64,000 nucleotides of DNA, from NCBI GenBank assembly GCA_000181795.3, contig CM012953.1, positions 8,564,668 through 8,628,667 on the forward strand, read 5' to 3'. Under the pieces are notes generated by a model that searched no databases, was not told where the DNA came from, and saw only the letters and a program-made list of their open reading frames with translations. The position numbers and the translations under genes were made by a program. Shown piece by piece: positions 33,504 to 62,800 of this stretch. This DNA comes from Trichinella spiralis (Eukaryota; Nematoda; Enoplea; Trichinellida; Trichinellidae). Within the stretch, counting starts at the first letter, position 1, and every line of letters begins with the position of its first letter.

Positions 33504-33937
33504 CGTATTGTTTTAAGTTTGCAAATCAAAAACTACTTCAGTAAGAGCAAAGAAAACACCAATAAATAACTCTAAAATCACAAGCAACTGCACATTTTTT
33601 ATTTCCGTGACCTACTATTACGGTAAATAAAGTTATGTTACTGTAAATCAAGAATTAAATATTTTTATTTTGAATTATTGAATTACACTTCAAAATTGAT
33701 ATTTATTTCAATGTATTATTGGTCCATTGAAGAAAATCAAGTATCAAACAGTAATAGAAAATTAATCTACTTGTGACTTTTGCTGCAATTTTCATGTAAC
33801 TTTACATTCAAGGTATACTGTCCGAAAAGAAACGAGAAAATTATGATGTATTTCTCGCATTTTACATACGTAAATATCGCGCAATTTAAAATAGAACTTT
33901 CATAATTCATATTTTGTGTTTAATATAATTTAAACAC
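33504..33937. other. Intergenic stretch between SLC66A1 and DUS2
   Basis: 434 AT-rich bases between two same-strand genes. Nothing else is visible. Confidence 0.45.
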
Positions 33938-35296
33938 TTACAAAAATGCTGAAATATTATGATCCAAAGACATTTCATTTAAACATTTCTCTGGAAGAAG
34001 TTTCGTCAGTCCTAAATAAATTATGGCGACTAGAGCTGCCGAATGCTCCGAATACCGCTTATTTGAGATCCACAATTCAGATTTGAAATGCTTATTATCT
34101 AAAGTAACATAGCTGTTAAATTTCCGATCACTACTTCTCTGTTCCGTGTGATAGACCGGTTGACGACGATTTGTTTCTCTACACCACTGATGTAAAAGTA
34201 ATTTTGGAGTTTTGAGCTTGAAATGCTTTCTAACGTAATTGACTTTTAATGAAAAAGTTTCACCTTCGAATGTTTTTCTCAGTCTGTTGCATTCCATACT
34301 TTTTTGCAACGATTTGACTCGATCTTCGTATATTTTCTCCATTCCCCACACCTGACAAATTTCATACATTGTAGCAGCTGCTGCAGTTTCTTGAATGATT
34401 TTCACAAAATCATGCCGTTCTCTAGACATCCTTTGAATTGTATATTTTACAAGTTGAACACATTCTTCATACTTTACAGCGTAACTGATGTAACGTGAAA
34501 CTACCGTTTTAAAATCATCAAAACCGTCTGATTGAAAAATTGACGGACTGACAATCGCGGCACGAGCAATCATTGCATGTGTAGCGTGGCATTTCAGACG
34601 AAAATTTTCTATATCCGTATGGTGACGTATTTCAGAAGAGCCGCCATTGCAAATGACAGGAATGCGCACTGCACGAGCAACTTCCGCAATGAAGTCATCC
34701 CTGTTCGGATGTTGAGCTCGTTCTGATGTCGTTCGTCCATGGATAGTAATTGCTTGGACGCCACATTCTTCAATCAGACGACATAAATCAACGGTGTCTT
34801 CGACACTGGGCAAAACGCGTATTTTACAAGAAACTGGCTTGGAAATATTTTCAACTAGCATAGTTAAAATGCTCCTCACTTTTTCACGCTGCTCAAGTAA
34901 AGCTGCGCCCATTCCACCTAGCAGTGAAAAAGGTTTCGGACATCCCATGTTGACATCAATTCCAGCCACATCCTGTTCGACAACTCGAGCTGCAGCCAAA
35001 GCTTTTTCTCCGTCACTGGTTCCTATTTGAAATACCAATTTATTAGTCTCTTTAGAAGAGGTACGAAATCTGGGAAAATTATCTCCCTCTGAACAGAAGT
35101 CGATGGTTCCAAGGTGTTCGTTAATTTTTCTCCTGCAACCAATAATTTTCTGATCGACAATTTCTTCTGTAAATACTAAATCAGCACCATAATCGAGGCA
35201 CATAAGACGAAATGGCAGTGTACTAATTCGAACCATTGGCGCCAATATGCGCTTACCCGCTCCAGACCATAACTGCTTTTTACATACTTCATCCAT
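33938..35296 (-). CDS. DUS2: tRNA-dihydrouridine(20) synthase DUS2
   Basis: One exon, 452 residues from the Met at 35296. The frame stays open to 35401, but the MDEVCKKQLW start is preferred because the family signature begins soon after (KRILAPMVRISTLPFRLMCL). The FMN-binding TIM barrel is clear. VNMGCPKPFSLLGGMGAALL holds the catalytic Cys, followed by CKIRVL, ITIHGRTTSERAQHP, PVICNGGSSEI and MIARAA. The C-terminal part (from LKVNYVRKHFKLKTPK to HSAALVAIIYLGL) is a double-stranded RNA-binding domain, which separates DUS2 from DUS1, DUS3 and DUS4. The enzyme reduces uridine 20 in the tRNA D-loop using NADPH and FMN. It is head-to-head with the ATP synthase beta gene, about 550 bases away. 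Confidence 0.93.
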   Translation of the reverse strand: MDEVCKKQLWSGAGKRILAPMVRISTLPFRLMCLDYGADLVFTEEIVDQKIIGCRRKINEHLGTIDFCSEGDNFPRFRTSSKETNKLVFQIGTSDGEKALAAARVVEQDVAGIDVNMGCPKPFSLLGGMGAALLEQREKVRSILTMLVENISKPVSCKIRVLPSVEDTVDLCRLIEECGVQAITIHGRTTSERAQHPNRDDFIAEVARAVRIPVICNGGSSEIRHHTDIENFRLKCHATHAMIARAAIVSPSIFQSDGFDDFKTVVSRYISYAVKYEECVQLVKYTIQRMSRERHDFVKIIQETAAAATMYEICQVWGMEKIYEDRVKSLQKSMECNRLRKTFEGETFSLKVNYVRKHFKLKTPKLLLHQWCRETNRRQPVYHTEQRSSDRKFNSYVTLDNKHFKSELWISNKRYSEHSAALVAIIYLGLTKLLPEKCLNEMSLDHNISAFL

Positions 35297-35846
35297 TTGC
35301 AAAAATTTCAACCATAACTGTTGATCGAAAAGCAAAATTACAATGACACCTACTTGTGTCATACTGTAAAAATTGAAACTGGCATTTATGCATTTCTTCA
35401 CTTTTTGTTTTTGTTCTTATAAAAACGTCATTTTATTCAAAAAATATATAAATAGTCTCCTTATACATATTTTTATACTTTATTTACTTTTCAAGATTTT
35501 ATAAATTTATTTTAAAATACGTTTGAAATAAATATATTTTAAATTAGAAATATATAAACTCAATGCTTAAATTAATACAAAAATCTCATCTTTTTTCGCA
35601 TAAAATAATCTTATTTAACTTGAAATTTTAGGAGGATTACTGTAATTATTTTTTCACTTTGCAACAAAGTAAAATAAAATATACTTCTATTTTAATTCAA
35701 AAAATAATTAGATTTAAATATATGTTTACTATATTTAAAGTTGAAATTTTAATTTTAATAAAGATACAAATATTTTCACTTGACATTCAATGTCTTAACA
35801 CTGTAATGAGTGCAACGCTGTCGTTTTTGGGGATTGTCTTGGTTAG
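35297..35846. promoter_or_regulatory. Shared 5' region of DUS2 and the ATP synthase beta gene
   Basis: About 550 bases separate the starts of two divergent housekeeping genes, so both promoters must lie here. It is very AT-rich with no recognisable core motif. The upstream continuation of the DUS2 frame (35297-35401) could be leader sequence. Confidence 0.4.
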
Positions 35847-42293: not shown

Positions 42294-45200
42294 TTAAACG
42301 TTGGTTGCAATTCCAACCTTACTGAGAAAATCAAAAAAATTGTTTGATACACCGCACATATTCATTATCTTGGCGCAGAAGCTAAATTTAGCAATAACTA
42401 ACAATAGACGATCATTCATTGTTTCTTCATTCTTTTCATATTTCTTAAACCACCAATGAAATACTTCTTTCAATACCACGCAATAAAGATTCCACTGCTC
42501 GCAGGGTTTTCTTCGAACAGCTGATTGTACAACATCTGGTTGATTGTGGTGCATCCGTACAATCATCCGATAGCACCTCTTTAGCACCGTGTAACGCTCA
42601 CGGTAAGTATCAAATCTGGTAGTGAAAGGAATATCAATATCACAATCGCACACAGCTTCTGTTGGCCAAATGAGAAAAGAGTCGACCAAGCGACGTACGA
42701 GAACTGGATGCTGTACATGATCAGCAAGATAATCACCATATATATCAGCGCTTGGTCTGTATTCGTAGATTATTCTTCTTATTGGCAGTGATTTAATTGC
42801 CAATGACAAAACTCGTCTCACACGTTCATCATCATCTTCCAACAGCATCAGAATTATACAATGCAATTCCAAGCCATTTTCCAATGTCGCCAGTTTGTTT
42901 AGCAATGGAAAAATGCCTATTATTAAACTGTGAGCAGCCGCCAAACGCCTGCTAGTTCGTTTAAAATCGTTCGCATATTGCAATACCAAATCTGACCAAG
43001 TCAACCATCCATCTTGTGCATCAAAACTACTGAATTTCATGACACGAGACAGCAGAGGCAAAGCCAACGCCCCTGCTGTGACACCGTATTTTCCAATAGA
43101 ACATTCAAACAAATAGGCTTTTAATTCTGCATCAGTTAAGCCGCTTCTTTGTTGAAACTTTTCAGGCATTCGATTCCAATCAGTCAAAGTTTTCCATCTG
43201 TCAGTTACAGACATGCGCTTCAGTTTAAAGCGCTTTGTTACATACAAAAATGGACGATCAGTAAATGAACCACAATCTGAATAATAAACAGGTGATGAAG
43301 ATTTTGCTTCATCACAATTTTGATCACAAATATCTTCCAAATTTGCATGAACAGCAGCACTATTATCAACAAGGGAAGTGATTGAGTTGTCGTCAGTCAT
43401 GCAAACTGACTTTTCCTCGTGCAATATATATTCTGATTTGGTATCGAAATCGACGTTAACTGAAACGCTTGTCCCATTTGAAACACTTCTGCTAACTGCA
43501 TTTGTCATCTTGGCTTCTGAAGATGCAATTTTGGTAAAATGAGAGAATTCTGGTGGTTCATCATCGCTCAAAGATTCGCTGCACAATACGGTTCTACCAC
43601 CACCGCACGGCTGCGACGTGGCTTCTGTGTTTGCTCGAGGTTTTAAATTCTGCAACGCAGAAATGGCAAAGCTAGGACAAGATGACAACGTATTTGGCGC
43701 CAATTGCCAAAGTAGTTTTACAAGAGCGTCTTTATGACTGCGCGTGATCTGAGCAGTTCTCATTTTTTGCATAATTCTTTTGGCAGATTTTGCTCGGATG
43801 TGAGGGGGGGTCATGTTGGCCAACACTTCTGCAATCATCATCTTCACTTTCCAATTTGGAAAAGTAATCAAATGAGATGCCAAGGCTATTTTTACTAATT
43901 TCACTTGTTCTTCCAGCTTCTTATCTGAAACGGTGTCTACCACATTAATTTTGCGTAAAATGAACAACAGCGGTATAAGACGTAAATCATTAGAATTAGG
44001 CACCGGTGTGTATAGAGTTCTGATAATTTGCTGCCAAATTGAAATAAAGTAAGTGTTGAACTGCTGCAAGCCAATCTTATCCGATTCATGTATAGGGCCA
44101 AACATATTCATAATGAGACCTGAAAGTAAAACTGACCCAGCTTCTTGCATCCAAAACACATGCGCACTGAACAAGCCAATACAAACGCATAGTATTTGCC
44201 TTAGAAAAGGATACAAATCCGAACTTCCAGAGTGCTTTATCAAAAACCCTTTCAAACAATGTACTGCTCTTAACATGACCACATTTACAGTATCACTTTC
44301 AAAGTCGTTATAAATGAGATTAGAAGGAATTTCAATTAATTGATTTATAACATCTGCAAAATGTTCTGCAGGTGCATTTTCAACCACTGCCATGATAAAC
44401 GCTGGATAAGGTCCACCTCGCCTCTGACACTGCACTGAACTTTCATCACAAATCATCTGCATAATCTGAGATGAAAATATTCTAAATGGATTGTTGCCAC
44501 TGCTTTCATATGTTCTGCAGAATTCTTCAAAATATCGCTCTATGATTTTCAACACTGGTGGACAGACTGTAAACGTTGCTACTCGAAAATAAAAACTTCC
44601 TGTTAGTCGACAGATGTTCAGTCTGCTGACTGGAAATTTTGTGCTTAGACAATTCAACAGACGACAGCCACGTTTCACGATCAACAAATAAAAACGTTCA
44701 CGAGCAGATATGAGCAATTTGGCATCTTTAGTATCAGCTGCGTAAGCACCTTCCAAATTTATCAACGATGGTTGTGATCCAGTTGAGCAAATTGCATTGA
44801 TCACTTTGAGCAGGAAAATTTTCAAATGGTTTAATATTTTAGGCACTTTTTTGCCCAAATCACGTTCATTTATTAGCTCAGCAGCTTGTTCGACGTCTTT
44901 AAACACAGCCAAAATATCCGGAGGTAAAAGATTGAGCGGAGATAACAAATAAGATAGCAATTCCTTTCCTAAAACTTTGAGCAAAGGTTTTGATGGCGGA
45001 ATGTAGTAATGTTTGACATAAGTGAAAATAACATGATCAAACGCAACACGTTCATCTAGACAAGGTGCAACTAAGTTTTTATCGTTTTCAAAGTCATTCA
45101 AAGTCGGTAACCATTTTCCAGCCAGAGAGCAAAGTATATTAAGTTGAGAACAAAGCTCAAATGCAAGCTCACTGAAGTATTCGATACAAAACCAAAGATC

Positions 45201-47259
45201 TGATAGCAAACAGTTATTATCATGAATATGAAGAATTACATTCGCAAATGCATTCAATGTATGAGGTCGTTGTTCATCGTTATATAGAGCTTTCTGAAAT
45301 TCGGTCATATTGGCATACAATTTACTTGAAAATTTCATCACATTAGATAGAAAATGCACTGCTACATGCATGCGTTTATGTGATGCTCCAGGATAAAGTT
45401 GTTCCATAACCTTCTTAACGATGCATTTTACAAATGCACTAAACTTTTCATTTACGTCGAACAACGTTGACAAGCCAGTTAAAATTGTACTTTCAACTGT
45501 GAAAATTTCAGTAATGCTAAAAAATTATTTTTTCAACTGATTTTACATAAATTCACAAAAAATAAGTAATTTTGCGTAAAATAATATCAAGTAAGTTGGG
45601 TAGTAGAATAATAATGGACTTTTCTCTGTCTTGAAAAATAATAGACCCAATTTTATATTAGCAAAATCACGTATGACAGCTACACTTACAGCTCTTATGG
45701 CACTTATATGAAAAAAATTTTTAATCTCAAAAATTAATATATTTCATGACGTGAACAGTAAAAACGACAAAATAATTTTCTTCAATATGACAAAAAAATA
45801 ATGAACCTAGCAAATATTTTTGTAAACCGTTTTTACATTAAAATTATGTATCCTGTGTAAAAATCTGCATCATTTAACAACATATGTTTTGAAATTATTT
45901 TAAATGAAAATGTTTAAAATTACATAATATTAAAATATCTTACCTGTATCTTGGAAAATTACTGTAATAAAAGTTCCAAACGTTTTCGGCTAAATCGTCA
46001 TCCCACATGTTTGTTTTGAACAAATTTCCAAATACATTGAAAGCTAGAATTTTTTCCTGGATATCTTCGCTTTCCAGTGCTTCTGTTATCTCTTCAAAAT
46101 AATTATTTCTGATGAAATTTTTATCAAATTGCTTAAATCTCAAAAGTTCGCTCAGCGAAGCAATACATGCCCGACGTAGTCGAGTGCGTCTGGATAAAGA
46201 AATTGCTTTAAGTGGATCCGGGTTTCCAGATATTTCATGTAAATCCACTTCATCAATTACTGAAATGTCGTTCATTTGGGGCTTGCAAGAGAGCAGTTTA
46301 TTGTGCAAAAGTCTTACAAAATCAATTTGTGTTTCTGTCTCACAGTAGCTTAATGAGCGCAGCATAAATGCTGTAGTGCGTGAAGCAGTTTCAGCATCGT
46401 CACTGGAGAGAAGTTGAGCAAGCATTTGCAACCATGGATTATTACCACCTTGATCGTTTAGGTGAAATTTTATGGAATAAACAAGACACAAATAAAAATA
46501 AGAAGCGCTTGCTGCCACACTAATTTTGGACATTGCCAGCTGTATATTATCCGATATCTTGGAAAAATGATCGCTGAAAAATTCTTTTGAACAATGAGGA
46601 GCCAATTCCGCAAGAATGGTGTACTTTCCCCAACAAAATGGTGAAAAACATGTCAGATAGTACAAAAACAGTTCTTCACATTTTTTTGTCGTCTTACGGA
46701 CTATCTTTAATAAATTCAACCAACAGGAAAAAATTTCCTTATTCGTTTCTCGAATCAAATCCGACGGACTCTGCCAAAAGCTTTCTATCACTAGTTTAAT
46801 TTTATCAACTACCTGTTTGCTGATAAAACTGCTAGCAATGCGATTGCGCTTCTTACATCTGTATTCAAACATAGAAACGCTGTACGCTTTTTTCAAGCAG
46901 TTCACAATTGACAACAACTGCAAATAATTATAACGTGTTGCATTGTTGACGACAAACGTGCATAATTGTTCGCACATTCGAGTCACCATATACGGTCCCT
47001 TACGGCCCAATCGACTTAGAAAGAAGGCATCTGGTGTACTGTTAAAAAATCCATTGAGTAAAATTAAAGTATTATCCAACTTGGCCCACGTCAGCAATAA
47101 GCTCAAGTCAGTGTAAGGGCTGCGCAAAGCTGAGATTATGCTTCTGATTTCAGAGTTCTCGACGTCGTCGTTCAAATTTGATTCAGCAATGATCTGTTGC
47201 CAAAGGTGTTGCCTACTTTCTATTTGATCATTGACAATATCTCTTTCGTTCATATTCAT
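42294..47259 (-). CDS. THADA: THADA/Trm732-like HEAT-repeat protein
   Basis: Two large exons (45944-47259 and 42294-45516) joined by a 427-base intron give 1512 residues. The join runs through a GTAAGAT donor and a TTTTTTAG acceptor and keeps phase. The protein is all alpha-helical with no catalytic motif. The block RRGGPYPAFIMAVVE followed by an acidic, hydrophobic stretch corresponds to the DUF2428 hallmark of THADA (human: RRSAGLPF). MNMFGPIHESDKIG and the long C-terminal helical repeats also fit. THADA (yeast Trm732) partners the FTSJ1/Trm7 methyltransferase for 2'-O-methylation of tRNA position 32; the human gene is also linked to thyroid adenoma and energy balance. The length is below human THADA (1953). 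A Ser-rich, acidic insertion around residues 640-790 looks disordered. Having only one intron in about 4.5 kb of CDS is unusual here. Confidence 0.8.
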
Positions 47260-49076
47260 TTCTCAATGGATAAGCAAAAAGCAACAACAAGTGTTTACTC
47301 AAATGCAGTTGTTGGTTCTAAAGTTGGAAAATCTTTATTTTAATTACAACAATATTCTAATACATTTAATATTATTTGAAAATATTTTTATTAAATATAA
47401 ATTAAACAATCGTTTAAGAACTATTGCCTGCATTATTCAGAGTTATATAACTATTTGTAAAAATCAATTAGCATAGTTTGTCCTAAATGTAAAATTACTT
47501 TGCAATTGTTCTCGTTCAAGTACAATGTCTGATGTATAAATGTTGTTTAATGAAAAAGTAAAAATGCTCTAAAAATGTTTATTTGTTTATTACATCTTAA
47601 ACTCTACGAAGTCATGTGTCAACATCTGATTGTTTAGAACTTCATCTGCTCATAGAAATCTAAATCATTAAGAACAATACTAAACTTAAAATTTAAAAGA
47701 GTCAAAAAGAATCACAGCAATATTTTTTAGCTCAAATATTAAAAAGAATTTCCATTTCAAACGAAATTTTCAATTAATAAACTGTTAATATTCCAGTAAT
47801 AGTTCAGTTCATGAAGAGAAAATTTTATATTACCTTAAATTGCATTTGTTTGCTAATGCAGATTTTTATCGCTATATAAAATACAAAATTAACGATATAG
47901 AAATTTGACTGCACAGTTTAAAAAATAAAATTTAGCATCAAACGTTTAAAAATGCAATAATTCAAGAAACTTACCGTCAATGAGAAAATTGAATATGCAT
48001 TCAGCAACAACGTATCACAAATGAAATGTTACAGATAATTGAAATGGCTAATAAAAGACACAAAGCACTGAATGTCAGGTTATTCAAAATTAGAGCAGTG
48101 AATAATTTACATAATGCTTAATAAGTACAGTAGTTTTAGTATGATTTATTGTATTACTCTGACGTACGTCATAATATGACTTAAACGTTCGAGTTAAAAT
48201 TAATAAATGCTAACGAATAAATGAATCACTGAATGTTATTGTAAAAAATTTCAACGTATATACATTGGCTAAATAAAGAATGAACGATAATGAACAAAAT
48301 TATTAAGTTGTATTAAACTTATTAATATTTAAAAGTTTTTTTCCTTCATTTACTTTGAAAAATTATTTAATGTTATACTTTTATGCATAGAAAAAAAAGA
48401 TTTTTAAATAATCACATTTCAAGTACAAAATTATAAGGTTGCCAATTGAATGCAGCAAATTATTCGTGTGAGTAAAGTTGACTTTTAACCTGAAATCTTT
48501 ATTATTGCACATTTAAGTGAGCAATAAAATGCAAGTAATCTAATTTGATGCAACCAACATTTACCAATTAGCTACGCACATTTATTTTATTATTTTTCAA
48601 TTAAAATAAAATTATTAAAACTGCTTATTGTTTTGCCTTTGTTTATGTTTTGTTGAACTTCTTCAGTAAGCATGAAATGTATGTGTGTGTGTGTGTGAAA
48701 TTTGTAATTCGCTTCTGGCCGAATGCACTCATCGCTGCCTAGTTTGACCAGCCTCTTCTGACCCGTAGGCAACGTTTTGTGGACAGCTTTAGAACAAATT
48801 GCGCTTTTGGCGTGATGACCGAACGGCACCGTTTCAGCTTTACCGAATTTTAAACCGACACAACGAATCTGGAGCACGGTCAGCTTCGGTCAGCTAAGCT
48901 GATCGCCATCGGGTGGTCTTGATTTAAGCTTCGCTTTGCACCACTCATTCCACCAACCACAAGCAGGAAGATTTATTGTTCCTCATTTTCATGACCACAT
49001 CCAACTAGAACTACTGATATTACTTCTTTCTTTTTCTCTTGCTTCTTTCCTTTATGCTAGAAGCTTCAGTCCACAT

Positions 49077-49110: not shown

Positions 49111-49353
49111 TAACTGAGACTGGTGAGCAACTGGCAAGCCGCTGCTGTCGAAAAAAACAAGCCTAACTGACGAAACTCTTTCTGTTCGTCCGTTGGCTAA
49201 AAGTTTTGATTGATGCCACACAGCTGCTCCGCTGCATGATTACTGTACGTAGCTGTTAGCGGCTAGTTTCCGCCAGTTGCAGCTGCGGCAGTTGCACATC
49301 GTTTTTACTGCTGCTGGCACTTGAAAAAGCTGAGCAAAATTTTATTTCACTCA

Positions 49354-49373
49354 TTCAGTCAGTCAGTCAGTCA
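49354..49373. repeat. (AGTC)n short tandem repeat
   Basis: Five tandem AGTC units about 115 bases before the proposed start of the Ig-domain gene. Confidence 0.8.
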
Positions 49374-49488
49374 TTTAGCTCTGTTCAGTCCTGATCGGCA
49401 GTCACTCCACTCACTTGCTCTTACAAAGCTTTCTTCTTCATATTATTATTGTTCTCATTTCTCTTCTTCTGCTTGTGTTGTCGAAATT

Positions 49489-52400
49489 ATGCTATCGTTT
49501 GTTCAGATTTTGATTTTAATTTTAATTTTGCCAATTTCATTTGCTAATCATTCCACTGTCAGAGAACTACTGGCACCTGAGACCAGTAGCGTGTCTTTGT
49601 CTTGTTCACCACTTTTGCAAGAGGAAAATTGCACTCGAGCTTCGTGGTTCCGCGAGGGGCAAGTTATCGGTACTTCTACATCCAACAGCAACTTGGTTCT
49701 TCGATTTGACATGAAAGTACCAGTACCGGATGACCAACCTCAAATTGGCTTACTACAGTTGGTTGGCTTGCGAAAAGGTAGCTTTTCAGGTAGAGAGGTT
49801 GGAGATTGTTGTTCAAGCTTTTCACTTCGTTCCAGGCGACGGCGGTCGGTTCTGGTGCCTTTGCAACGGCACCGTCGGTCAAGTGGCTCGAGTACGGATC
49901 GTTTACTTGGATGAGAGCTTCAAAAATGCCGCTCAATTATTGCAAACCACTGCCGGTCATTCGGTGATTCTGAAGTGTCGCAAGCCAGCCGGCTTTCCAA
50001 TACCAAGCGTACGCTGGGAAAGGGTAAGTCGCAAAGCGTAAACTAACAAAACACAAAAATCTTTCTTCATTTCATCAAATGCCAATATTTGCCTGTTTAA
50101 TTGATGACAATCTGCATGCAGATTTGATTTCTTAATTTTCTTCAAGCATTCATCGATAAATAATTCAACACAATTCTTATTTACTAACAACGTTGGAAAA
50201 TGATGTTTTATGCTTAAAATCATACATATAAGGATTTTAATCAAAAAGTAAAAAAAACTATATCACCTTTTCTTATTACAGTTTTAATTAAAGAATATCG
50301 AAAATGTTTGAATCTACAAACTTTCCTATCTAATGGTTTAATGGTAAATTCGGTGCACTTATATGTAAAACTGCCGACAGATTAGTTTAGCTGGAAAATT
50401 TTATCTGAGGACTGGTGTACAACTAGCATTATTTGATTGAATAAAAAGAGGAAGTAAATGAAATTGAAAATTAAAAAAAGTTGTATTTAAAAGAATTTTT
50501 CATTTTTTAAACATCCTTTATATATATATATATATACATGCATCTTATACAGATGGCAGTGATGGAAAATGATTTTGACAAAAAATTGTCCAATTGAAAA
50601 GTTCATTTTCATTGTGTTAAACATTTACATTTTATTATTACAAGTAGAGAATTTAAAAGTGATTGTAAATTTCTTTTGTCACCCAAACTCTTCAATTTCT
50701 TCTCACTGAATGGAGAAATTGAAAGAACGAACAACACAGGAACAGAAAGCATGTAGTTAGTCACTGGTGAAAGGCCTACTTTTATTCTATCTACTTTTGT
50801 TTAGAAATATCGGTCATGAATATTGTTTGCTTCATTTTATTCGAATATATAAGTTCATAAATAAGAATTGCCTCATTTTATCAATAAAATTATTGTTATA
50901 ATATTATTATTATAAAATAGTATATATATATGTGAAATAAAAAATTAAAGTTTGCATTTGTACATTAAGAAAACATTGATGCTAGTAGAATGATGCTTCT
51001 TATACATCATCATATTTTGAGATGTGATTTTGCAAGAATTGCGAATCATTCGATTTGGAAACTTAATTGATGTTTTCATAAATACATATTGACTAAAATA
51101 ATACACCATAACTACAGCCACTGCTTTAATGCAACTATGCTTTGCGCAAAAGTTTTGAAGAGGATCCACTGCATGCTTGGACTTATTTTTATACGCAAAG
51201 CTCAAGTTGGCTTCAAAACAGCAATCAAGCATTTCGTAGGGCAGATTCAAAAATCCTCTGACAAATTCGTCGTTCGCTATTCAAAATTTGCCCAACAGGA
51301 AATTTCTCAGATGAAAACTAAAAATAAATCAATAACAGAAAATTTCTTGGCATATTTTGATTAGTTATTAGTGATATTTAAACTCTTTTATTGGAAAAAT
51401 ATTGCAATTACATACATTTTAAAACAAAATTTCAAATGAAATGATTCTGATTAAATTTTAAGAAAATTTACTTTTAAGCAAGCATTGTTTTGCTTGAGTT
51501 TTTTGAAATTTAGAAAAAAAAGTAAAACTTTGAAATATCATATGTAAAAATAAATAGCGAAGAACCGTATGTCATGGGGGTGAAATGATCGATAGTTTTT
51601 TTTATAAAAAATTGAAATAAAACACAAAACAGTTTTAAAAAAAGATGTTTAAAATTGCAGATGTTCTGTGCATATTAAAACATTGAAATTTAAATCTCAA
51701 TCAAGTCAACGCGAAACGCATTGATTGAGATTATTGTTGAAGATCAAGATTTAATGGTTTTTAGTTCGCTTCTTGGATTTATTCACTTTTTATAATTAAT
51801 TTGATGAATAACAATAAGAAGAAGATATGCATTTTCAGTTTGAAGAATGTCAAAAAGTAAATAAATACATTTAAAAAGTTGCTTTTTAACCAGCGGCAGT
51901 GAAGATGCTTAGTTTGTTTTTAGCGTTTGTCGGTTGTTTTATTTTTGTTAGCTGAGCTGAAATTAATAAAAGTTTCAAATTCAATCATAAAACACTTTTA
52001 TGTACATTTCGTGTGTATCAGTGTGAAAGTTGAGAACATTCGACATTTTCAACAGCAACTGCGCGAAAATTGAACTTCACAAAGCATGCTTTAAAATAAT
52101 ATTAAAATATTCAGTTTTTGTTTGGTTCAATTTCTTGTTTATTTTATAAATTCTGATGAGTTAGAATTTTTAATTTTTTTTTAGAACGGCGATTTGATAT
52201 TGCCTGATGATCGATTCAGTCTAACATCCCTCGGCGATTTGATGATCACTTCAGCCAGTATATCTGACACGGGCCATTACAAGTGCATCGCTTGGAATGT
52301 GGCAGGCGAACGGAATTTGGTTCATCTTTTAACAGTGTTGCCTGCTTCGTGGCATCCAAAATTGCATTCCCAGTCATCTGCAAAACAGAATTTTGCAACC

Positions 52401-52694
52401 AACCATTCCATGCTACAAACAATATTCAGCACACTCTGCTATTTGTTGGGTTGTGTTTTGATCATTGTACTTTTGGTGGATCTTTTATGGCATGCGGCAC
52501 CGTCGTTGGCCGGCTACAGTCGATGCTGCTTTTCTTGGCTAAATCGAACATTGTTGGCAGGATGCCACAGTCGCTGGCCACGCCCACCAACTTATGAAGT
52601 TTGCAACGACGAATTTACGTTTCATCTGCCCCCGCCCCCTTATTCAGTAGTTACGGGTCGCCTTTTGCGAATACGACCAGCAAGTGTTGTTTAA
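49489..52694 (+). CDS. Single-pass membrane protein with two Ig domains and two cytoplasmic PPxY motifs
   Basis: Three exons (49489-49716, 49790-50023, 52185-52694) give 323 residues. Signal peptide residues 1-19 (ILILILILPISFA end). Ig domain 1 has Cys in VSLSCSP, Trp in ASWFREG and Cys in RFWCLCNG. Ig domain 2 has Cys in VILKCRKP, Trp in PSVRWER and the canonical DTGHYKCIAWN. A membrane segment follows at about 236-258 (LCYLLGCVLIIVLLVDLLW), then a 65-residue tail. The tail holds two PPxY motifs, RPPTYEV (288-291) and PPPPYSV (304-307), expected to bind WW domains such as those of Nedd4-type ligases. The 73-base first intron must be removed to keep frame; an acceptor 12 bases earlier would also keep frame. 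Intron 2 is 2.2 kb. It resembles small neuronal Ig-superfamily proteins of the ZIG type in layout only; I do not recognise an orthologue. Confidence 0.78.
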
Positions 52695-53790
52695 AAAATA
52701 TTTTCCCATTTCTTTCTTTTGCACTTTTGATTACTTTTTGTGATTTGTTCTTTTTTTTAAAGTTGATATGTTACAGTGTTCCATGTTCTGATGTTCTCTT
52801 TAAAAATAACTGTTTTATTTGATAATTTTCCTTGCATTTAAACATTATTCGATAAAATGGCACTGTTGCCCGAAGTTTTTATCGTGTAATTAATTATCAA
52901 TCACAATCATGCAGATATTGGAGAAATCTCACTGTTATGTATTGCTTTTTATTAAATATATTTTTAAATAATACAAATTTAAAAAATTATAACGTTGTAT
53001 AATTGCATCACCGAGGAAATTACGCAAATCTGGGTTTTGTCCAAGCAATATTACAATATAGCAGAAGACTGCCCATTGTAATAATACATTAAACTATTTT
53101 ATTTTCATGAAGCAGCTAAACCATATATAATCAGCATAAGGCGAAAGATGTTTAATTATTTATTATGCTATTATTGATTCATTTACATCTGTGCAAATTA
53201 TAGATTTCGAATATTGAATGGGTTATACACATATATAACATTTTTTTCATTCATACTGCAAAAAGCAATAAAAGAAACTGCATGTTCACAAAAATTGTGG
53301 CATTTGTAATTTTTAAAGTGAATTAAAAATTTTCAAACATATTTGGGCATATTTCACGTTTAATAAAGCATAAAATAGTCTTAATTAAGCAAAAAAATTC
53401 ACAAAATATTTTTAAAATGCTTTGAATATTTATCATTTCCACTTTACAGATTGTTTTAATAACTGTTAATAAAATTTTAAACAATCACAATGTTTTAAAC
53501 TGCAAAATCGAAAATTTGAGCACAGATTGGTCATCTATCATTTTCGAGTATGGCTAAAATGTGATTTGAAGAAGCATTCAAATAAAATCATTAAACCGGG
53601 TAAAGCAGAATGTGCTCATTCATTTTTACTTAATTAAAAGTTCTAATTTTAAAATAATAATCAATCTTTTAAGCGTTATCTGTTTAATAAAAGCCAATGC
53701 TTAAAACAGAAATAGTAGCAAAATATAACTTTCTTTTATTTCAAAACAGCACCAAGTTAAGAAATATCCAAAGAATAAAATTACCCCATA
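52695..53790. other. Intergenic stretch after the Ig-domain gene
   Basis: AT-rich, with no supported gene. It carries the 3' end of the Ig gene and the 3' flank of the small candidate gene on the other strand. Confidence 0.4.
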
Positions 53791-54119
53791 TTACCTCTTT
53801 GCTGTCGGAAAGTCGTCGGTTGTTTCATTAGCCAGTAGCATTGATGTTTGAGAGCACTGTTTGCAAATTACTTGACCTTCTGCTGTGTTTACATCTTTAA
53901 AATCATAATCTGATGAGAGTAAGCAAAATGTAAATATTTTGTCCCTTTTGTCTCTAATACAACTTACATAATTGAAGTGTTCATTAAATTATTAAAAAGT
54001 ATAAATTCTTCATTTAGAAGATAATAATAGCTTAATGTTGTTTGTCTAAAGCATAAAAAAGAAGAAAAAAATATGTTACTTTTTGCAAGTGGCTGCAACT
54101 GCTTTTTCTTCTTTTTCAT
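53791..54119 (-). CDS. Possible 52-residue two-exon protein with a CxxC motif
   Basis: Two short exons (54080-54119 and 53791-53909) on the minus strand, joined by a GTAACA donor and a TCATCAG acceptor, keep phase and give 52 residues. The N-terminus is very basic (MKKKKKQLQPLAK). The second exon has a CKQC pair in GQVICKQCSQTSMLLAN and ends FPTAKR before TAA. Codon composition looks protein-like against the AT-rich flanks. I recognise no family. It may instead be an exon of a longer, undetected gene; a CULT/Yippee-like zinc site was considered but the motif is too short to say. Confidence 0.3.
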
Positions 54120-54792
54120 TCTAGAATGGCTGCCACGAATGCAATATACATAAACAAAGCTTTAAAGGATGATTTTATAAAATGTTCAAATGTTCAATGT
54201 CACTTCTGGTTGGCCAGCTGGAGGAAACGTTTAACGTGCTTCTTCTTAGTTGGCTTGAACAACGCCTAGAAATGATGAATTGCTTTGGCCGATGCTTCAG
54301 CATTGTCAAAACTTTTCATCCAACTGGCGTACATTTCAAACATTTTCCTTTTAAATTTAGCTTTCTGATCAAATTAATATGCTAAGCTAATTTTCATTTA
54401 TTTTTTGTTTTGCTTGCTTCTCTACCTTCTTTTTACGCATTCGTCAGAGCGGTCAACAGTTGGCTCCACCCAGCTTCAACCGGTCAGCTATTGAAACAAA
54501 AGACTTGTCGTTTATTATTATTATTGGTCAGCATTGGAGCGGATAAAAAGGCATTAGTCGACCCGGATCGAAGCTGCTTCGCCGAAAAGCTGTCGTTAGC
54601 ACGACTGAGGCGACCTCTGTCCACGCTGACCTCCCATAAGTGGCGGTCATTGGTTTGGTACAACACTGTGCGACAGAATCGATCGTGTATTATTCATACA
54701 AATACCCTGCTTCAGCGTGCTGAAGTATATTTAAATAGCGTTGACAGTAAATCGGCGGACTGATTTTGAAACAACAATTTTTCTACTACACG
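54120..54792. other. Upstream region of the tyrosinase-like gene
   Basis: About 54400-54790 is less AT-rich than its flanks and lies immediately before the tyrosinase-like start, so it is probably promoter and leader. A 117-codon open frame at 54410-54763 has no recognisable product. Confidence 0.4.
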
Positions 54793-57700
54793 ATGATATT
54801 ACCGCTAATAAGGCCTAACTCTGCACTGACTCTCACCTCCCAACTAATCTTTTGTGCAGTTTTTTTCCCTGGACTGATTGAAGGTCAGGTGCCACGCGAA
54901 TGTGCTAACGAAGGACTTTTAACACAGCGCATTTCTTGCTGTCCAACGCCAGATGGTAAGTTACACTGCTCTTGATGCGCTCTTTGCTGCATATCCATTT
55001 TGACTATTTCACCTTTGTAACTATTAACTGTGCACTTTATCACATTATCTTAATCAACGATCATGGCACAGAGTTGTTATTCAGATTATTTTATACTTCA
55101 ACTTCACAACTTTTAAAATTAATTTATAAATTTAATATTTAATTCCATTTTTGTTACCGTTGCCGAGCAATTTAAAATCACAAGCTTATCTTTGCACGTG
55201 ATCTGATTTTGTATGATTTTAATGAAAAAGTCCCAAAATTAATAAAGCATCATTCAGTTTTATCTTATTTTATTTCAAAAGAAGTATCCATTGCAAGAGA
55301 ATAACGTACTTGAAAAATGTCCTAAGCAACGCTAGATCCCAGGATTAACGTTGTTTTTACCAATTGGTATGCATTTATGCAAAGTTGTTTAGTTTTTCTT
55401 TTAATTGCTTTTTCCTTTTATGAACAGAATTTAAATTTAATGGATTCTATATTTATATAACTTATCAAATAATTTATTGCATCAAGTGGATTGAAGATAT
55501 GCTTCAGTTTTTACGAAGATGATTCACATTTGTTCACAGCGGCTGGTACAGCTGTTACAAATTTGCCATTCGTCATAATTTTGTCCTTGATACATATGAT
55601 TCATTTGCAGTGCAAACAAAAGCTGCATGCCAGAATAATAAATGTCCACTGAAAGCTTTCCTGCTTAATAGACATTCGGCACCAATTTGGTAGAATATAA
55701 ATAATTTAATATTGCTTGTAATGCCTAATTTGATTATTTCATGCTTTGTCGAATGAAGCAGTTATAAATAAAGCTTTCTTCACATTTCTATTAAAGTGGA
55801 ATTGTTAGTTTGAATAAAGATTGCAAATACTTTTATATACATCTGCAAATTTCACAAATTTATTAAATTAAATGTAATTGATATGGTTGTGCATTTGTTG
55901 CAATATATAAAATATATTTCTAAACTTTTATTTTTCATATAAATTTTACAAAAATGGAATTGAATATTTTGTTTTTACAGCTGAAAAATTACATCTCCAA
56001 ACTTATATTGGGAATATTTTTGAATGGCAAAGTGTTCCGCGTCATTTTGCACTCTTGAAATGGTTCGGATTTTCCTCCAGATGCGTGACTTTTATATGTA
56101 AAGCGCATCTGTTGCTATTTCTGACAGCACTGAGGCGCTAGTTTCACTCTTATCTGACACTAATGTTCACCAAATGCTAACTGCTTAACTCCACTTTAAG
56201 CTGAATGATTTAGTATCTACTAGCTGGAATGTGTCTCATCAGCTGAAAAAGATAAAGATCAGCGCAGGGTAATTTATAGTACGAACTGAAAACTAATTAA
56301 TTATAACGAAACATATCACATGATGATTGCAAAGCTTTTTTCTAATGTTGAATTTTTTTCAATCGGCTGTTACTATATTTAAATTTAATTACGTTAGGTG
56401 AACGTGAAATTTAAATGTCAGTGGAAAAGAATTTTCTTTCAATTCAAAGCAGCAGTTTGTTTGGAAAATATTTATAGTTTGTTAAATTTTTATTCTTCTG
56501 CCTGAAAATTAACCTAAGTATGTAAATGTCATTATTTGCTGATGGAGCAGTCGAAGCATGTGGAGGTAGCATCCTCTTATAATAGCTTTTCACGAAGATA
56601 TGCACTTCTGCATCCACTATTATGCAATGTTATTCTTTATTTATCAAAAGTGGAAGGATATCCACTTTTAAAATGCCGTCCATTAAGATTTGTAATTATT
56701 ATGAAATGATTTCATTAAAAATGAGAAATTTATTTCATGTTTTGTATAATAAAAGCTTTTGTAAAATTTTTATTCAACAAAGTTGACTCATAAATTTAAT
56801 AAACGCTCATAATTATTGCAGTAAATCAGTAAATTTTATAATATTAAATTTATGATGGAAAAACCATTTGCAAAATCAACTGCGCACGTTTCAATGAGTT
56901 GTTGGCTGTTTCAACGCGCTTGTATAATGACATTTGCAGAACTTCATCACAAATATTCATTTCATCAATAAATATTTCTCTTTTTTGTCAAGTTGATGTT
57001 CATAAGCTCGGTAGTTTTTAATTGGAAAATGGATTTGTACATGAGTTGTTGTCAAAAAGAATAAAGAAGCTGATATTTAATAATCATAAAGCTCTGTCAT
57101 ACGTGAAGCATTCGGTCTGTTTGGTCAGCTAAATAATAAGCTTCGCGTTTATTGTTCATCAATGAGCCGTTTCTATTGTTGACCTGAGCTTGTTACTTTT
57201 CAGTGTCGCGTGTCTGATAAAGGAGAAAAACAGCGACAGCGTCTCGCATGTGTTTCCGCTTTACAGTTCATATATTGATGAATTATCAGAAACGGCGACT
57301 GTATTGCAAAAGAGAGGAGCAGAAGCTCTTATCCATTTTGAAGGATAATAACAAATTGATTATACAATCCTTCTCAGCGTGTGTTCAACAAATTGTAATA
57401 ATTAAATCGAAATTATTCCCTTCTTTTCAATGAATTTGCATAAAACTGGAAATTGTCCGAGGCTGACTTCAATGCAAACGATGTAAAAAAGTACAATTGC
57501 AAAAATGTTTTTATCGTTGTATTTATTTTATTAAATTTAGTAGAAAATATTGTTTTTTTGTTTTAATTTCATAGTGCGATTTGTAGGTTTTGATAAACCG
57601 TGCGGTGGACCTGGACGTGGGAATTGTGTGAAATTAGAGAATCCAGAAAGAAACAGAGAAACAGACTTATTGACGCCGAAATTAGATACAGTATTTTCCA

Positions 57701-59549
57701 TGTGGCCAAATTCTATTTATAAAGAAATTTGCGTTTGCAGTGGTCATTTCACTGGTTCCAAATGTGATGAATGTGTTGCTGGATATCGCGGGCCGAACTG
57801 TGAACACCGAATGCACAGTAAAGTGCGTAAGTGGATTAACCATGTCAATTCAGAAGAGGCAGATTTGTTATTAAAAGCTTTCCGACTAGCTCAGCATCTT
57901 TCCTCTGATCAATTGACCCTGTTGCCAATAGCTAACGGTGCAATTGAGCTGAAACAGTTAACCATCTTTGAACATTACGCTTGGATTCATTACATGGCAA
58001 GTGCAGAACAATGCTTTGGCATGGGATACGGTACTGGTTCAGCTTTTCCCACTTGGAATCGAGCATTTCTGTTACAGCTTGAATCAACTCTTGCTCGTCT
58101 GGTTCAAAATCATTCATTAACTTTGCCTTATTGGTTTTGGTTTATTCCGGAACCTGACAATCCTGTTGTCGGAAATTCTACAATTTTTGCCGCTCTTGAT
58201 GCACTAGCTGATCAGATGAGCATATGCCAAACGTGGGCAGCACGTTTGCAGCCGTTGTGCGATATATGCAGCAGTCGTGCAGTGACATTGAAGTATTACA
58301 ATTTGAACGACTACAATCAAACGTTGTTACAAATTCAACGACTGTTGGATCACGTAGACGATGAGGATTTGAAAAAGCAGTTGAATTTCATTTTGCACAG
58401 AACGTTATATGTACAAAACGGTGGATTATTAGGATTCACAGATGAACTTGACGCACTGGTTTCACACTTAAGTCCTGTATTAATGGATGGCTTGCACAAT
58501 GTCAGCAACGATGAAAAAGTATTTCTTTTTTCACTTTTTATACATTTATTTTTCACTCTACAATTTTATAACATTCATCTTTGTTAACTTGATTTCATAC
58601 TATTATTTATCATCATTTGACAACATTTCTCCATTTCAGTTAAATTTATATAGTTTGATAATTTTCAATTATATCTTCATTACTGCTTTTTTAACTTTAA
58701 AAACAGTTTTAAATTCAATTTGACTAAAAAGAGAATTTTGTATAGTTTCATTCGTTTATAATTTGCGTTGCAAAATAATGAATGTTTGTTTCATTTCACT
58801 TTCTTTGTCAAGGCGATCGCTGTGCTACGTTATCTGCTTCGTTTTCCAGCAGATTTGAACGCTGAAAATCCATTGTATTATTTGGCGTTGTCGGCTATTG
58901 ATTGGTTATTTGATCGTTGGCAAAAAATTAATCACGTCGCTCTTAATCAAATTTCCTTCACCACTTTACGAGGAAAAAACAAATTCGATCCAATCGTGCC
59001 TCTCTTTCCAACAAATACTCATGGCGATTATTTTGGTGCAACTACATCATATGGTTATAAATTTGAAAAGATCATTCCACGCACTCATCTGTGTATGTCT
59101 GTCGCATGCTTCATATGTACATATATCTATATACATATAGATACATGTTTGTGTGTGTGTGCGTGTATACCTAAAATCTTTTTTTTTTTATTTTTCCAGC
59201 TCTACCATTTTTCTTGGTCATTCAAGTGATCTGTTTAACAACTGTTGTTGTCGTGGTGCTATTCCTTTGCCGTCTCTTCACGCCGCTCAAGTCGAAACTG
59301 CATGCTCAAGAAGCAGAAGATCCTTTAATTGACAACGGTCTTACCAGCACCATTGTTGAAATAGAAAATCCCGCGCCGAATGGAAAGCACAACACGGTCG
59401 AAGAACCCTGGACAACAGGAGAAGACACAACGGCTGAACAACATGTCCAAGTCACAAGCTCTTTGTACACAGTCAACGACGATGCCAACATCAACACCGG
59501 CAGCATAGTTTCCATCGATGCTAGCCCAAGATCCGCTTCCAGTGATTGA
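54793..59549 (+). CDS. Transmembrane tyrosinase-family protein lacking most copper ligands (probable pseudoenzyme)
   Basis: Four exons (54793-54955, 57575-58518, 58813-59092, 59200-59549) join to 578 residues. Order: signal peptide ending near FFPGLIEG; a Cys-rich region starting QVPRECANEG (compare the TYR start QFPRVC); an EGF-like segment (CVCSGHFTGSKCDECVAGY, GPNC); a tyrosinase-like core (about 140-450); a membrane segment (FLVIQVICLTTVVVVVLFL); and a cytoplasmic tail of about 95 residues. This is the architecture of vertebrate TYR/TYRP proteins. In the core, YAWIHYMAS keeps the first CuA His, but FAHEAPAFLPWHR of human TYR corresponds to GYGTGSAFPTWNR, losing two His. In CuB, LLHHAFVD corresponds to YLALSAID, and the HNALH motif is MDGLH. 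At most one ligand per site remains, so type-3 copper chemistry is unlikely. Intron 1 is 2.6 kb. The function is unknown. Confidence 0.8.
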
Positions 59550-59845
59550 AATTCAATTCGCTACAAATCAAATCATCTCCCATCTCATCGAATCACTCAC
59601 TCACTCACATTCATTGAATCATTTTGTTCGTTTGTTTTATTTTTCGTTTTCTAACATATGCTGTTTTTAAAATAAATATTTTAAATTACTGTAACAGTAT
59701 ACATAAAATAAATACATTTATATAGATGATGACCATACTACTATACTGCACGTATCACAAATAAGTAACATGTCGAATTGTGCGTATTTGTGTTATTATG
59801 AGAAATGAATTGATTAAATCGCAGCAGATATGAATGAAAAAAAAA
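59550..59845. other. Convergent 3' region of the tyrosinase-like and ISWI genes
   Basis: About 300 AT-rich bases between two convergent stops, with CACT repeats at about 59588-59608 and AATAAA-type signals near 59672 and 59707. Confidence 0.5.
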
Positions 59846-62800
59846 TTAAGCCTTCGATCTACGACTGCTTCTTTTTCCATCTTGTACATCAGTTTTGCGT
59901 TTTTCAGGGGTAGCTGCTGACGAACCACTTCGTCCAGATTTGCAATTGTTTCGATTTCGTCCTCCGCCACTGCTTTTGTCGTTTTGCTCAACGTCGTGCA
60001 TTTCTTTTTCAATTAAGCTTATCAAAGTGTTACATCGTCGTTGCAACTCCTGAAAAAAAAACAAAAAGAAGCGTAAAACAAAAATCAAGCTCGTTCACAA
60101 ATGATATACCATAGCTGTTCGAGATTTCAAAAACCAGTCAAATCGAAACTGTGGTGCCACTCGGATTGCTTGTCGCAATTCTTCATACAAATTTTCCTTT
60201 CCAAAGCCAATCTCGTGTAACATGCAAACCAAAAATCTTAAAAAAAAGAACAATATGAATTAATTAAAATGCTGAATTCAAAAAAAATTTCATTAAACTA
60301 AACAGCAAAAAATGGGTAGCTTCTATTTCTTTACCTGTCTTCTTCTTCGGTATAATTTTTCCCCTTATTTGTACCGTACTGTACACGCAGCTGATGGAAC
60401 GGTGCTCTGTATCGTGCAATTTTCGACTCCAACGCACGTTTCACACTGAGACGCTTCTGAATTCGAGCTTCTCCTCTTTCAATTTGACCCAAAACACGGT
60501 CAATATCCGCCAGTTCACAACAACGAGCCCAAAATACTTTGTAAAATTCTCGAACCTGAAAATTGAACAATAAAGCAAAACTCAAGGGTCAATCAATCTA
60601 AACTGCCTCAAACTAACCTCATCAGGAGATTTGCCATCCACTTCTTGGGCAATATTTTCAACATCGTTACGGCCGTATTTTTCATTCGCCTTGATAAACT
60701 GATTAAATTCCCGCCGAGACCAGTTGCTAAATCCACAATGCAACAACTGCTCCTTTTCAGCCAATTCTTCTTCTGTCAGTGGTACAGCTTCATCAATTTT
60801 CTTTTGTTCATCTTCTTGCCGTTTCAAAGCTTCTTCAGGTGGAAGATCTTGCATCAGGGGAACCTGCAAATTACAATCAACTTTACATTTTACTTTAAAA
60901 ATATTTACAAACACATGTAATAATAATTCGTATATACAGTAATGCAAAAAATAAATATAATAATAATACTACACAACTTTTATAATAGAAAAAAAACAAT
61001 ATACGTATATATATATTACCTTATAACCGATAGTCTTTCGATAATAATAGACTTCTCTTTCACAGAGATGCAACAAACGAGGTGGATAGAAGTGAAAATC
61101 TTGTATCTGCGGTTGCTTTGGTGGCCTTGGAGCTTTGGGTGCTTTTGGTTCCACATGTGGACGGAGTGCATCTCTAGAAAAAAAAGTACATATTAAAAAA
61201 ATATAATCTAAAATACATAAAAACAAATAGAAGCACCTGAAATAAGCATCGATTTGATAATTCGCTTTGCGTTCTCTTTTCGGAGGCTCAATCCAATAGC
61301 CAAGAGCTTTTCGCTGTTTGCCTCTATAATCTTTCCCTTCAAATTGATACACCGAAGAAGCTTCTTGCGTGTCCAAAGTGAAGTTTCGCAAAGAACTTTC
61401 TCCCAGTTCTTCTAAACGACGCTTCAAAGCCTAAAAGCAAACAAACCAACGATACAAATTTTCCAAACAAGAAAAAAGTCAAACATTACTTCATTCTTTT
61501 CTTCGGATCTCGCCAAAATGCAGTCAATATCTTCTTCGGTAATTTCCGACTCCTTTCCTGCAAACACATGATCCGCACCATGCCGAATCATGGTCAACAT
61601 CTCGTCTTTTCCAAGAGATTTTTGAGTTTCGGCCAGCCGCCCTTGCTGAATTACCACAGTGTCCAAGCGCAGTTTTATTTCTGCACGTTCCACAATCCGC
61701 TCTTCGACAGTATTTTCGGTGATCAATCGAAACACTCGAACAGTCTTTTTCTGACCAATTCGATGAGCTCGATCCATCGCCTGAAGATCCATCTGAGGAT
61801 TCCAATCTGAATCATACAATATAACAATATCTGCTGTTGCCAAATTAATGCCAAGACCGCCAGCACGCGTGGTTAGCATAAAAATAAACTTTTCGCTGTT
61901 CGGGGCATTGAAAGCATCAATTGAGGCCTACAATAAAATAAATGCATGCTTCATTAAAACTGAATGCAAATCGAAATGAGTTACTTGTCGCTCTTGATGT
62001 GGAGTTTGTCCGTCCAAGCGACAATACGGATACTGCTTCCACAAGCAGTAATCTTCCAAAATATCAAGCATTCTGGACATCTGCGAAAAAATCAAAACTC
62101 TCGAACCTTAAACAACAAAAGATTGCATTCACAATTTTTAACATTTCTGCTAAAGAAAAAACCTTGTTCTTTCAATTTAGGCAAAAGCTTGTCGACAAGA
62201 ACCATTTTGCCACAATTATCTACCAAATGTTGATCAGTAGTAAATGGCGGTCCCGGTTCCGCACCATCGAATAAGTAAGGATGATTGCAACATTTTCTTA
62301 GTTGCATAAGAATGTTCAACAAACGAGCCTTTTCTAATTTGCCTGCTCCGTTAACAATATCAATATCTTTCATTAGAATTTTTGTATACCTAAAAAACAT
62401 AAAAATAAAAATAAACACATGCAAAATGAAAAACTGCAAAAAATAACAAACCAATCTCGCTGAAGCTTCGACAAGCCAATGTAAATTTTTAGCTCCTTTT
62501 TCGGAGGAAGCGCTTTCTCTACTTCAGATTTCAAACGTCGAAGTAAAAACGGTTTCAGAACCTAACAAATATTTACATTACAATTATAACAAACATAATT
62601 AATAAAAATGAGATAGTGAAACGTACGGTGTGCAACCGCTCCACGAGTCCAGTATCACCAAAACATGAACTCGTGTTAAACCAAGCGTCAAAATCATCCG
62701 AGCTGTTGAAAACATCTGGCAACAAAAAATTTAATAAGGCCCACAGTTCATGCAAATTATTCTGCAGAGGAGTTCCAGTTAAAAGTAATCGATGCGAAGA

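Follow-up and report, generated by a model that had tools for sequence, protein, structure and literature searches.

Tyrosinase-like gene and its orthologs

The 64,000-nucleotide stretch of Trichinella spiralis DNA analyzed here (C1:8564668-8628667, hereafter the window) carries a four-exon gene on the forward strand, the product of which resembles the human membrane-bound tyrosinase family, namely TYR, TYRP1 and DCT, while retaining at most two of the six histidine (His) ligands of the metal site. The joined exons form an open frame of 574 codons followed by a stop. An earlier note, made from the letters of this DNA, had recognized a TYR/TYRP architecture in the protein, and our analysis agreed, recovering a signal-like segment, an EGF-like part with 10 cysteines (Cys) and a tyrosinase core, followed by a single membrane helix and a tail; profile-profile comparison with human TYR, TYRP1 and DCT by hhalign returned a probability of 99.9% (E 5.8e-32, 408 columns). 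The profile search that it had suggested pointed the same way, with 34.8 bits to the Pfam Tyrosinase family (cut-off 22.6) and human TYRP1 as the best match in the PDB (E 1.1e-20, or 1.1e-26 with a nematode profile). The TYRP1 match was strongest over residues 32-241, i.e., the EGF-like segment and the CuA half of the core, and weak over residues 378-451. The window protein shares 22-25% identity with any one of these human proteins, those paralogs being 40-50% identical to one another.

The nearest public protein was P0001 of Trichinella zimbabwensis (579 residues, 91% identity, representing a cluster of 22 sequences), publicly named 'L-dopachrome tautomerase, partial'. Two further orthologs were found in whipworms, namely P0002 of Trichuris trichiura, also named L-dopachrome tautomerase, and P0003 of T. 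muris, named for its tyrosinase domain only; since orthologs occur in these three species, the frame is not a chance open reading frame (ORF). Pfam Tyrosinase was matched by all three orthologs (listing limit E 1; P0001 at 1.2e-7, the best at 8e-8), as was, weakly, EGF_laminin (best E 0.0019; P0001 at 16.5 bits, below the cut-off of 21). The EGF-like segment (residues 32-130) was best preserved, with 58% identity to Trichuris and 32-34% to the human proteins, followed by the core (48% and 22-24%, respectively); identity to Trichuris was 24-27% in the tail and 44% overall. In protein database searches, two of which scored the 7996 and 7997 candidates with the most words in common, the matches came solely from Trichinella and Trichuris, and the vertebrate TYR family was not returned even when a TYRP1 fragment was placed in the query alignment; since such known relatives also failed to appear, these searches are uninformative on gamma-subclass genes of other nematodes. 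Several other matches were set aside, namely those of P0001 to the NCBIfam models TyrosinaseMelC2 (23 bits against a cut-off of 450, far sub-threshold) and manganese catalase (15.4 bits against 350), and one to a meganuclease in the PDB (E 0.007), the last two being taken as chance. An AlphaFold2 model of P0001, built with P0002 and P0003 and hence from three sequences only, reached pLDDT 34 and pTM 0.25 and was unusable.

Loss of the metal ligands

Ligand columns were read from a MAFFT alignment that combined the four nematode proteins and their human counterparts TYR, TYRP1 and DCT, with a second placement by hhalign; of the human sequences used, that of TYRP1 was compared with its PDB chain and matched it at residues 25-472. 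It is to be noted that the calls at CuA2 and CuB1/CuB2 depend on gap placement. On this basis, at most two of the six ligands are retained in Trichinella, none in T. trichiura, and none or one, according to gap placement, in T. muris, and the six-His pattern CuA H1(n)H2(8)H3 + CuB H1(3)H2(n)H3 was found in none of the nematode proteins. The residue-by-residue reading in the earlier note was largely borne out, in that the CuA His of YAWIHYMAS is kept (H189), the His of PWHR has become Asn (N212, at CuA3 in all four nematode proteins), the His of AHE is missing from a shortened CuA2 stretch with Gly in its column, and Ala-Leu (A390-L391) stands in place of the His pair at CuB3. The same note had declared the metal site gone with a single His remaining; the dismantling stood, whereas the count did not, as the CuB1/CuB2 stretch contains a second His (H358), aligned to CuB2 by MAFFT but to CuB1 by hhalign. 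There are also His residues near the ligand columns in Trichuris, one residue past CuA1 in T. trichiura, and one residue beyond CuA2 in T. muris (RHDGALPTWNR), which another gap placement could align to CuA2. The four His common to all four nematode ectodomains (H140, H184, H325 and H435) align with non-ligand human residues, and PTWNRAF and LPYWFWF, landmarks of the core, show no variation among the four proteins.

The ligands were also viewed against the general conservation of the family. The three human paralogs are invariant at 158 columns; 68 of these are kept by the window protein and 54 jointly by the four nematode proteins, the latter including 11/15 Cys (all 10 of the N-terminal ones), 5/6 Trp, 11/18 Gly and 0/7 His; these seven His are the six ligands plus one other, and the window protein taken by itself keeps two of them. 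The difference in retention between Cys plus Trp and His was significant by Fisher's test (p 6.7e-4). The losses common to both genera, i.e., CuA3, CuB3 and at least one CuB His, would predate the Trichinella-Trichuris split, reported at ~281 million years ago with T. suis as the dated whipworm (PMC4740406), and those of CuA1 and the last CuB His are confined to Trichuris. This pattern is as expected if selection was relaxed at the metal site while the protein itself stayed under it.

Second genomic copy and selection

When the whole genome (53.1 Mb, 14 contigs) was searched with the window protein, two places were found, with four exons at each. The second lies in a recurrence of window positions 51054..61721 (+) at C1:8813118-8823822, with 98.6% identity and runs of N on its flanks; window positions 17830-25220 similarly recur at C1:8785657-8793059 (98.0% identity), the recurring piece abutting runs of N. 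Such second copies are probably redundant allelic contigs placed in the scaffold, although they may represent a recent duplication. The two coding sequences differ at 7/1725 sites, all seven synonymous and none nonsynonymous (dN 0, dS 0.018), and both frames are open; without selection, an outcome of 7/7 synonymous would have a probability of 2.8e-5 to 1.7e-4, for transition weights of 1 to 4. Divergence between the copies was 1.41% in intron 1, 1.07% in the upstream flank, and 0.37% in the downstream flank, where part of a neighboring gene lies. There is purifying selection on the whole protein, resting on few changes. The earlier note had considered the gene maintained rather than decaying and had named a dN/dS near 1 as the sign of a pseudogene; the comparison of the two copies contradicts such a ratio, and the orthologs in two Trichuris species likewise speak for maintenance.

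Membrane topology, cysteines and tail motif

By hydropathy alone, all four nematode proteins have a first hydrophobic segment, located at residues 11-29 of the window protein, and one strong membrane segment. In the Trichuris proteins P0002 and P0003, about 50 residues precede the first hydrophobic segment, which starts at residue 54-58, and their annotated starts may lie too early, upstream of the true start codons. The window protein has four N-glycosylation sequons, each of which recurs in P0001 and both Trichuris proteins, and one of which also occurs in human DCT. Between the two metal sites, the cysteines corresponding to TYR C244, C247, C276 and C321 are lost, while C197, C268 and C279 are gained in all four nematodes and absent from the human paralogs; judging from these positions, the disulfides of the core seem to have been rewired. 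Each of the four nematode tails contains one [DE]xxxPL[LIM] motif, also present in human TYR and TYRP1 and not in DCT; shuffled nematode tails contained it at 0.003-0.007 per tail, a rate to be read with the fact that the sequences had been seen before the pattern was chosen and the limits of the tails were drawn.

Gene model and neighboring genes

The coordinates of the gene and of its notable sites are collected in Table 1. The start of exon 2 admits two acceptors, that at 57575 giving a protein of 578 residues and that at 57587 one of 574. The four extra residues of the longer model are absent from P0001 (...CCPTPDGFDKPCGG) and from Trichuris P0002 and P0003 (...CCPIPEGFTEPCGG), and the acceptor at 57587 was preferred because all three orthologs lack them. 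Thus, of the earlier claim of a frame intact over 578 codons, the intactness holds and the length does not. That an extra exon might restore the His ligands is disfavored, as the CuA2 and CuA3 positions lie within one continuous exon; an extra exon in intron 1 is likewise disfavored, since the orthologous proteins join across this intron with no insert. The genome search with the protein is silent on this point, as it cannot reveal an exon missing from its query. In-frame reading into intron 2 ended after 22 residues, and inspection of the intron 2 frames by eye showed no tyrosinase-like stretch.

Table 1. Features of the tyrosinase-like gene (window positions)
Feature	Position	Strand	Remarks
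Exon 1	54793..54955	+	Signal-like hydrophobic segment and first Cys; donor gtaagt
Exon 2	57587..58518	+	Cys-rich EGF-like segment, then the CuA half of the core and the CuB1/2 stretch; acceptor 57587 favored over 57575
CuA1 His codon (H189)	57988..57990	+	Retained in both Trichinella; Tyr instead in the two Trichuris
CuA2 stretch	58029..58033	+	Nine residues shorter than TYRP1; column Gly (Trichinella), Arg (Trichuris) by MAFFT; gap placement uncertain
CuA3 position	58057..58059	+	Asn (N212) in 4/4 nematode proteins
CuB1/CuB2 stretch MDGLH	58483..58497	+	Single His (H358, MDGLHN) in Trichinella; none in Trichuris
Exon 3	58813..59092	+	CuB3 stretch and end of core
CuB3 position	58885..58890	+	Ala-Leu (A390, L391) replacing (H/L)-His; Leu in 4/4 nematode proteins
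Exon 4	59200..59549	+	Transmembrane helix, cytoplasmic tail, stop codon
Transmembrane helix	59202..59276	+	Approximate ends; hydropathy peak 2.99
Tail motif EAEDPLI	59310..59330	+	Fits [DE]xxxPL[LIM] of human TYR and TYRP1

None of the eight neighboring ORFs scanned matched a pigment-related family. Downstream, and converging on the tyrosinase-like gene, lies an ISWI-like chromatin remodeler (60582-61927, minus strand; HAND and Helicase_C above the cut-off, a Myb-like domain below it). Also on the minus strand are a PQ-loop protein (32664-33512), a dihydrouridine synthase with a double-stranded-RNA-binding motif (33938-35416), and a THADA/TRM732-like ORF (42294-45524; DUF2428), adjoined by an ORF with no Pfam match (45940-47262). 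Two ORFs lie on the plus strand, one with no Pfam match (49267-49914) and the other with an I-set match of 21.9 bits, below the cut-off of 23.7, followed by a hydrophobic segment recognized by eye (52185-52694).

Alpha-type gene in the same genome

Apart from the window gene and its copy, a genome search with Pfam Tyrosinase, in which five candidates were scored, returned a single alpha-like gene, located at C1:19741908-19744781. As this search reads the genome exon by exon and scored few candidates, a further tyrosinase-fold gene may exist. When read by eye, the alpha-type gene was seen to contain ...IIHSPKYAPGAHFGPAFLPFHR, with three CuA His, and ...FELYGGVTLWVGGHM...YFFHQC. Its CuB1 and CuB2 positions are occupied by Tyr and Thr, where hemocyanin units in the PDB have H-x-x-x-H before WxGG (HNSIHAWTGG), and the CuB3 His is kept; the core, joined by eye, scored 93.3 bits to Pfam. 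Both tyrosinase-fold loci found thus lack a complete CuB site, and the alpha-type gene may, by its residues, be catalytically impaired. It is conceivable, though we consider it rather unlikely, that both genes are pseudoenzymes in a lineage that abandoned type-3 copper chemistry, that their scaffolds are what was selected, the gamma one being a granule or surface protein, and that the gamma lineage is an ecdysozoan survivor of the deuterostome-type tyrosinase.

Interpretation and alternatives

The gamma subclass of tyrosinases is described as having a signal peptide, a Cys-rich region and a membrane helix (Aguilera et al., PMC3658974). The window protein has a signal-like segment and a helix, as judged by hydropathy, together with a Cys-rich segment and a core homologous to TYR/TYRP, and on this homology the gene would belong, as a nematode representative, to the membrane-bound (gamma) subclass by descent, not by its metal site. 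Its catalytic residues are lost and the gene is maintained, both of which were found by sequence alone, and we regard it as very likely that the protein is a type-3-copper pseudoenzyme of the gamma subclass. In the mechanism that we propose, the protein would enter the secretory pathway, fold through its retained N-terminal disulfides, become N-glycosylated, and be anchored by the membrane helix, with the [DE]xxxPL[LIM] tail sorting it to endosome- or lysosome-related granules or to the cell surface. There, the EGF-like and tyrosinase-fold ectodomain would bind a partner protein or a phenolic ligand, acting as a scaffold, chaperone or receptor, with no redox or tautomerase chemistry in the role. 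This account as a whole, i.e., a metal-less gamma pseudoenzyme kept by selection, sorted to granules or the surface, and acting by binding, is on balance the one we favor; its binding or scaffold component, taken separately, is tentative and somewhat doubtful. A literature search on tyrosinase or dopachrome tautomerase of Trichinella or Trichuris gave no paper on the window protein by title or abstract opening, and none of the matches listed concerned, at the same depth, a nematode pseudoenzyme or one belonging to the membrane-bound gamma subclass.

Several points weigh against this account. The loss of His was not significant when compared with all other human-invariant columns, of which 54/151 were kept (p 0.096), and weak metal binding could persist through the two His in Trichinella and the His beside CuA2 in T. 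muris. The coding divergence of 7/1725, although lower than that of intron 1, is similar to that of the downstream flank, and as the copies may be alleles, the codon test is one within a single genome on seven changes. The gene model is known from the genomic sequence and orthologous proteins, and the fold assignment from sequence profiles. Regarding function, single CuA mutants of human tyrosinase reportedly keep dopa oxidation and lose about half of tyrosine hydroxylation, whereas its CuB His mutants significantly lose both activities (PMC7144311); by alignment, the simultaneous loss of CuB3, CuA3 and more in the nematode proteins exceeds any of those single mutants. Regarding sorting, AP-3 is reported to sort tyrosinase to melanosomes (PMC4649669, PMC10235903); however, the strict consensus [DE]XXXL[LI] occurs in none of the four nematode tails and, among the seven tails, in human TYR alone, and TYRP1 is described as dependent on tyrosinase, with no direct AP-3 binding (PMC10235903). 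In view of the missing strict consensus and of these reports on TYRP1, we treat sorting to endolysosome-related granules as a lead and not a result, with a putative standing a little short of even.

The protein could still be a metalloenzyme, such as an L-dopachrome tautomerase with zinc or a single metal that relies on what His are left together with other residues, in line with the public names of P0001 and P0002, the description of DCT as a zinc enzyme (PMC5855855), and the candidate His, of which Trichinella has two and T. muris one, near CuA2. However, all six His are retained in DCT while the ligand columns of T. trichiura are devoid of them, the four shared nematode His align with non-ligand residues, and the papers listed on 'dopachrome tautomerase' for Trichinella and Trichuris concern, by title, proteins of the MIF family; we thus consider this quite improbable, and the public name itself is unsupported by the ligands, the loss of which calls it into question. 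A carrier or sensor, in which the empty pocket holds a phenol, an indole or another small ligand, would be favored by the fixed PTWNRAF and LPYWFWF landmarks; this is also improbable, if somewhat less so, considering that the CuA2 stretch is shortened by nine residues relative to TYRP1, and that the predicted model, at pLDDT 34, was unusable.

The remaining alternatives concern the gene rather than the activity. The differing exon 2 acceptors might hint at a pseudogene or a gene-model artifact, but with both copies open, no nonsynonymous differences against seven synonymous ones, and Trichuris orthologs after ~281 million years, a pseudogene was rejected and the chance of either is negligible. 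As to origin, and not mechanism, horizontal transfer from a vertebrate host instead of vertical descent would fit the fact that our searches found the gene in no more than two genera, both parasitic in vertebrates, and the listing of the nematodes surveyed by Aguilera et al. with alpha-subclass genes (PMC3658974). Against it are the three introns and the 22-25% identity to each human paralog, by which the protein is not close to any one of them, although fast evolution could blur such even distances; we hold transfer to be very improbable. The reading that we prefer, that of a gamma-subclass pseudoenzyme, would offer a natural case in which a TYR/TYRP ectodomain and tail motif were kept over a split of ~281 million years without the metal site, and any non-catalytic job of the TYR/TYRP fold would thereby be separable from melanin chemistry. 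It would also place a relative of the deuterostome-type membrane-bound tyrosinase in nematodes, beside an alpha-type gene. This bears on the question, left open by Esposito et al. in 2012, of whether two tyrosinase genes were already present in the metazoan ancestor, the deuterostome-type one being lost in protostomes (PMC3334994), as would the survival of a gamma lineage in ecdysozoans, if true.

Comparison with known type-3 copper relatives

Loss of ligand His has been described in other branches of the superfamily. Arthropod hexamerins and cryptocyanins, relatives in the beta subclass, are hemocyanin-derived proteins that do not transport oxygen and are kept as storage proteins (PMC6850205), and hexamerins miss at least one ligand His (PMC5201427). 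In the hemocyanin-like Hcl-1 of the snail Biomphalaria glabrata, a canonical His is replaced, in conserved fashion, in each functional unit (PMC5201427). Since hexamerins and Hcl-1 persist in this state, type-3 copper relatives can evidently outlive the loss of ligand His. The resemblance has limits, as the hexamerins and cryptocyanins belong to another subclass than the window protein, and Hcl-1 is a molluscan hemocyanin relative of three functional units that lost one of six His per unit, compared to four to six here. Hexamerins and cryptocyanins are soluble storage proteins, not known to have a membrane anchor or an EGF-like segment, and neither hexamerins nor snail Hcl-1 are known to be membrane-bound.

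Within nematodes, where expansions of the alpha subclass have been reported (Aguilera et al., PMC3658974), the alpha-subclass tyrosinases of C. elegans and Brugia share the tyrosinase core with the window protein. The alpha-type gene of the same genome, however, has hemocyanins and tyrosinases as its best PDB matches, unlike the window gene with its TYRP1. Alpha-subclass tyrosinases are also not known to have a membrane helix.

Overall, the closest known system is that of human TYR, TYRP1 and DCT. The nematode proteins differ from these in the absence of at least four of six ligands in Trichinella and five or six in Trichuris, the CuA2 stretch nine residues shorter than that of TYRP1, the partly replaced inter-site Cys, and an identity of 22-25%; in common with them, they have the same order of parts, a profile match over 408 columns and each of the 10 N-terminal Cys, and they share the tail motif with TYR and TYRP1.

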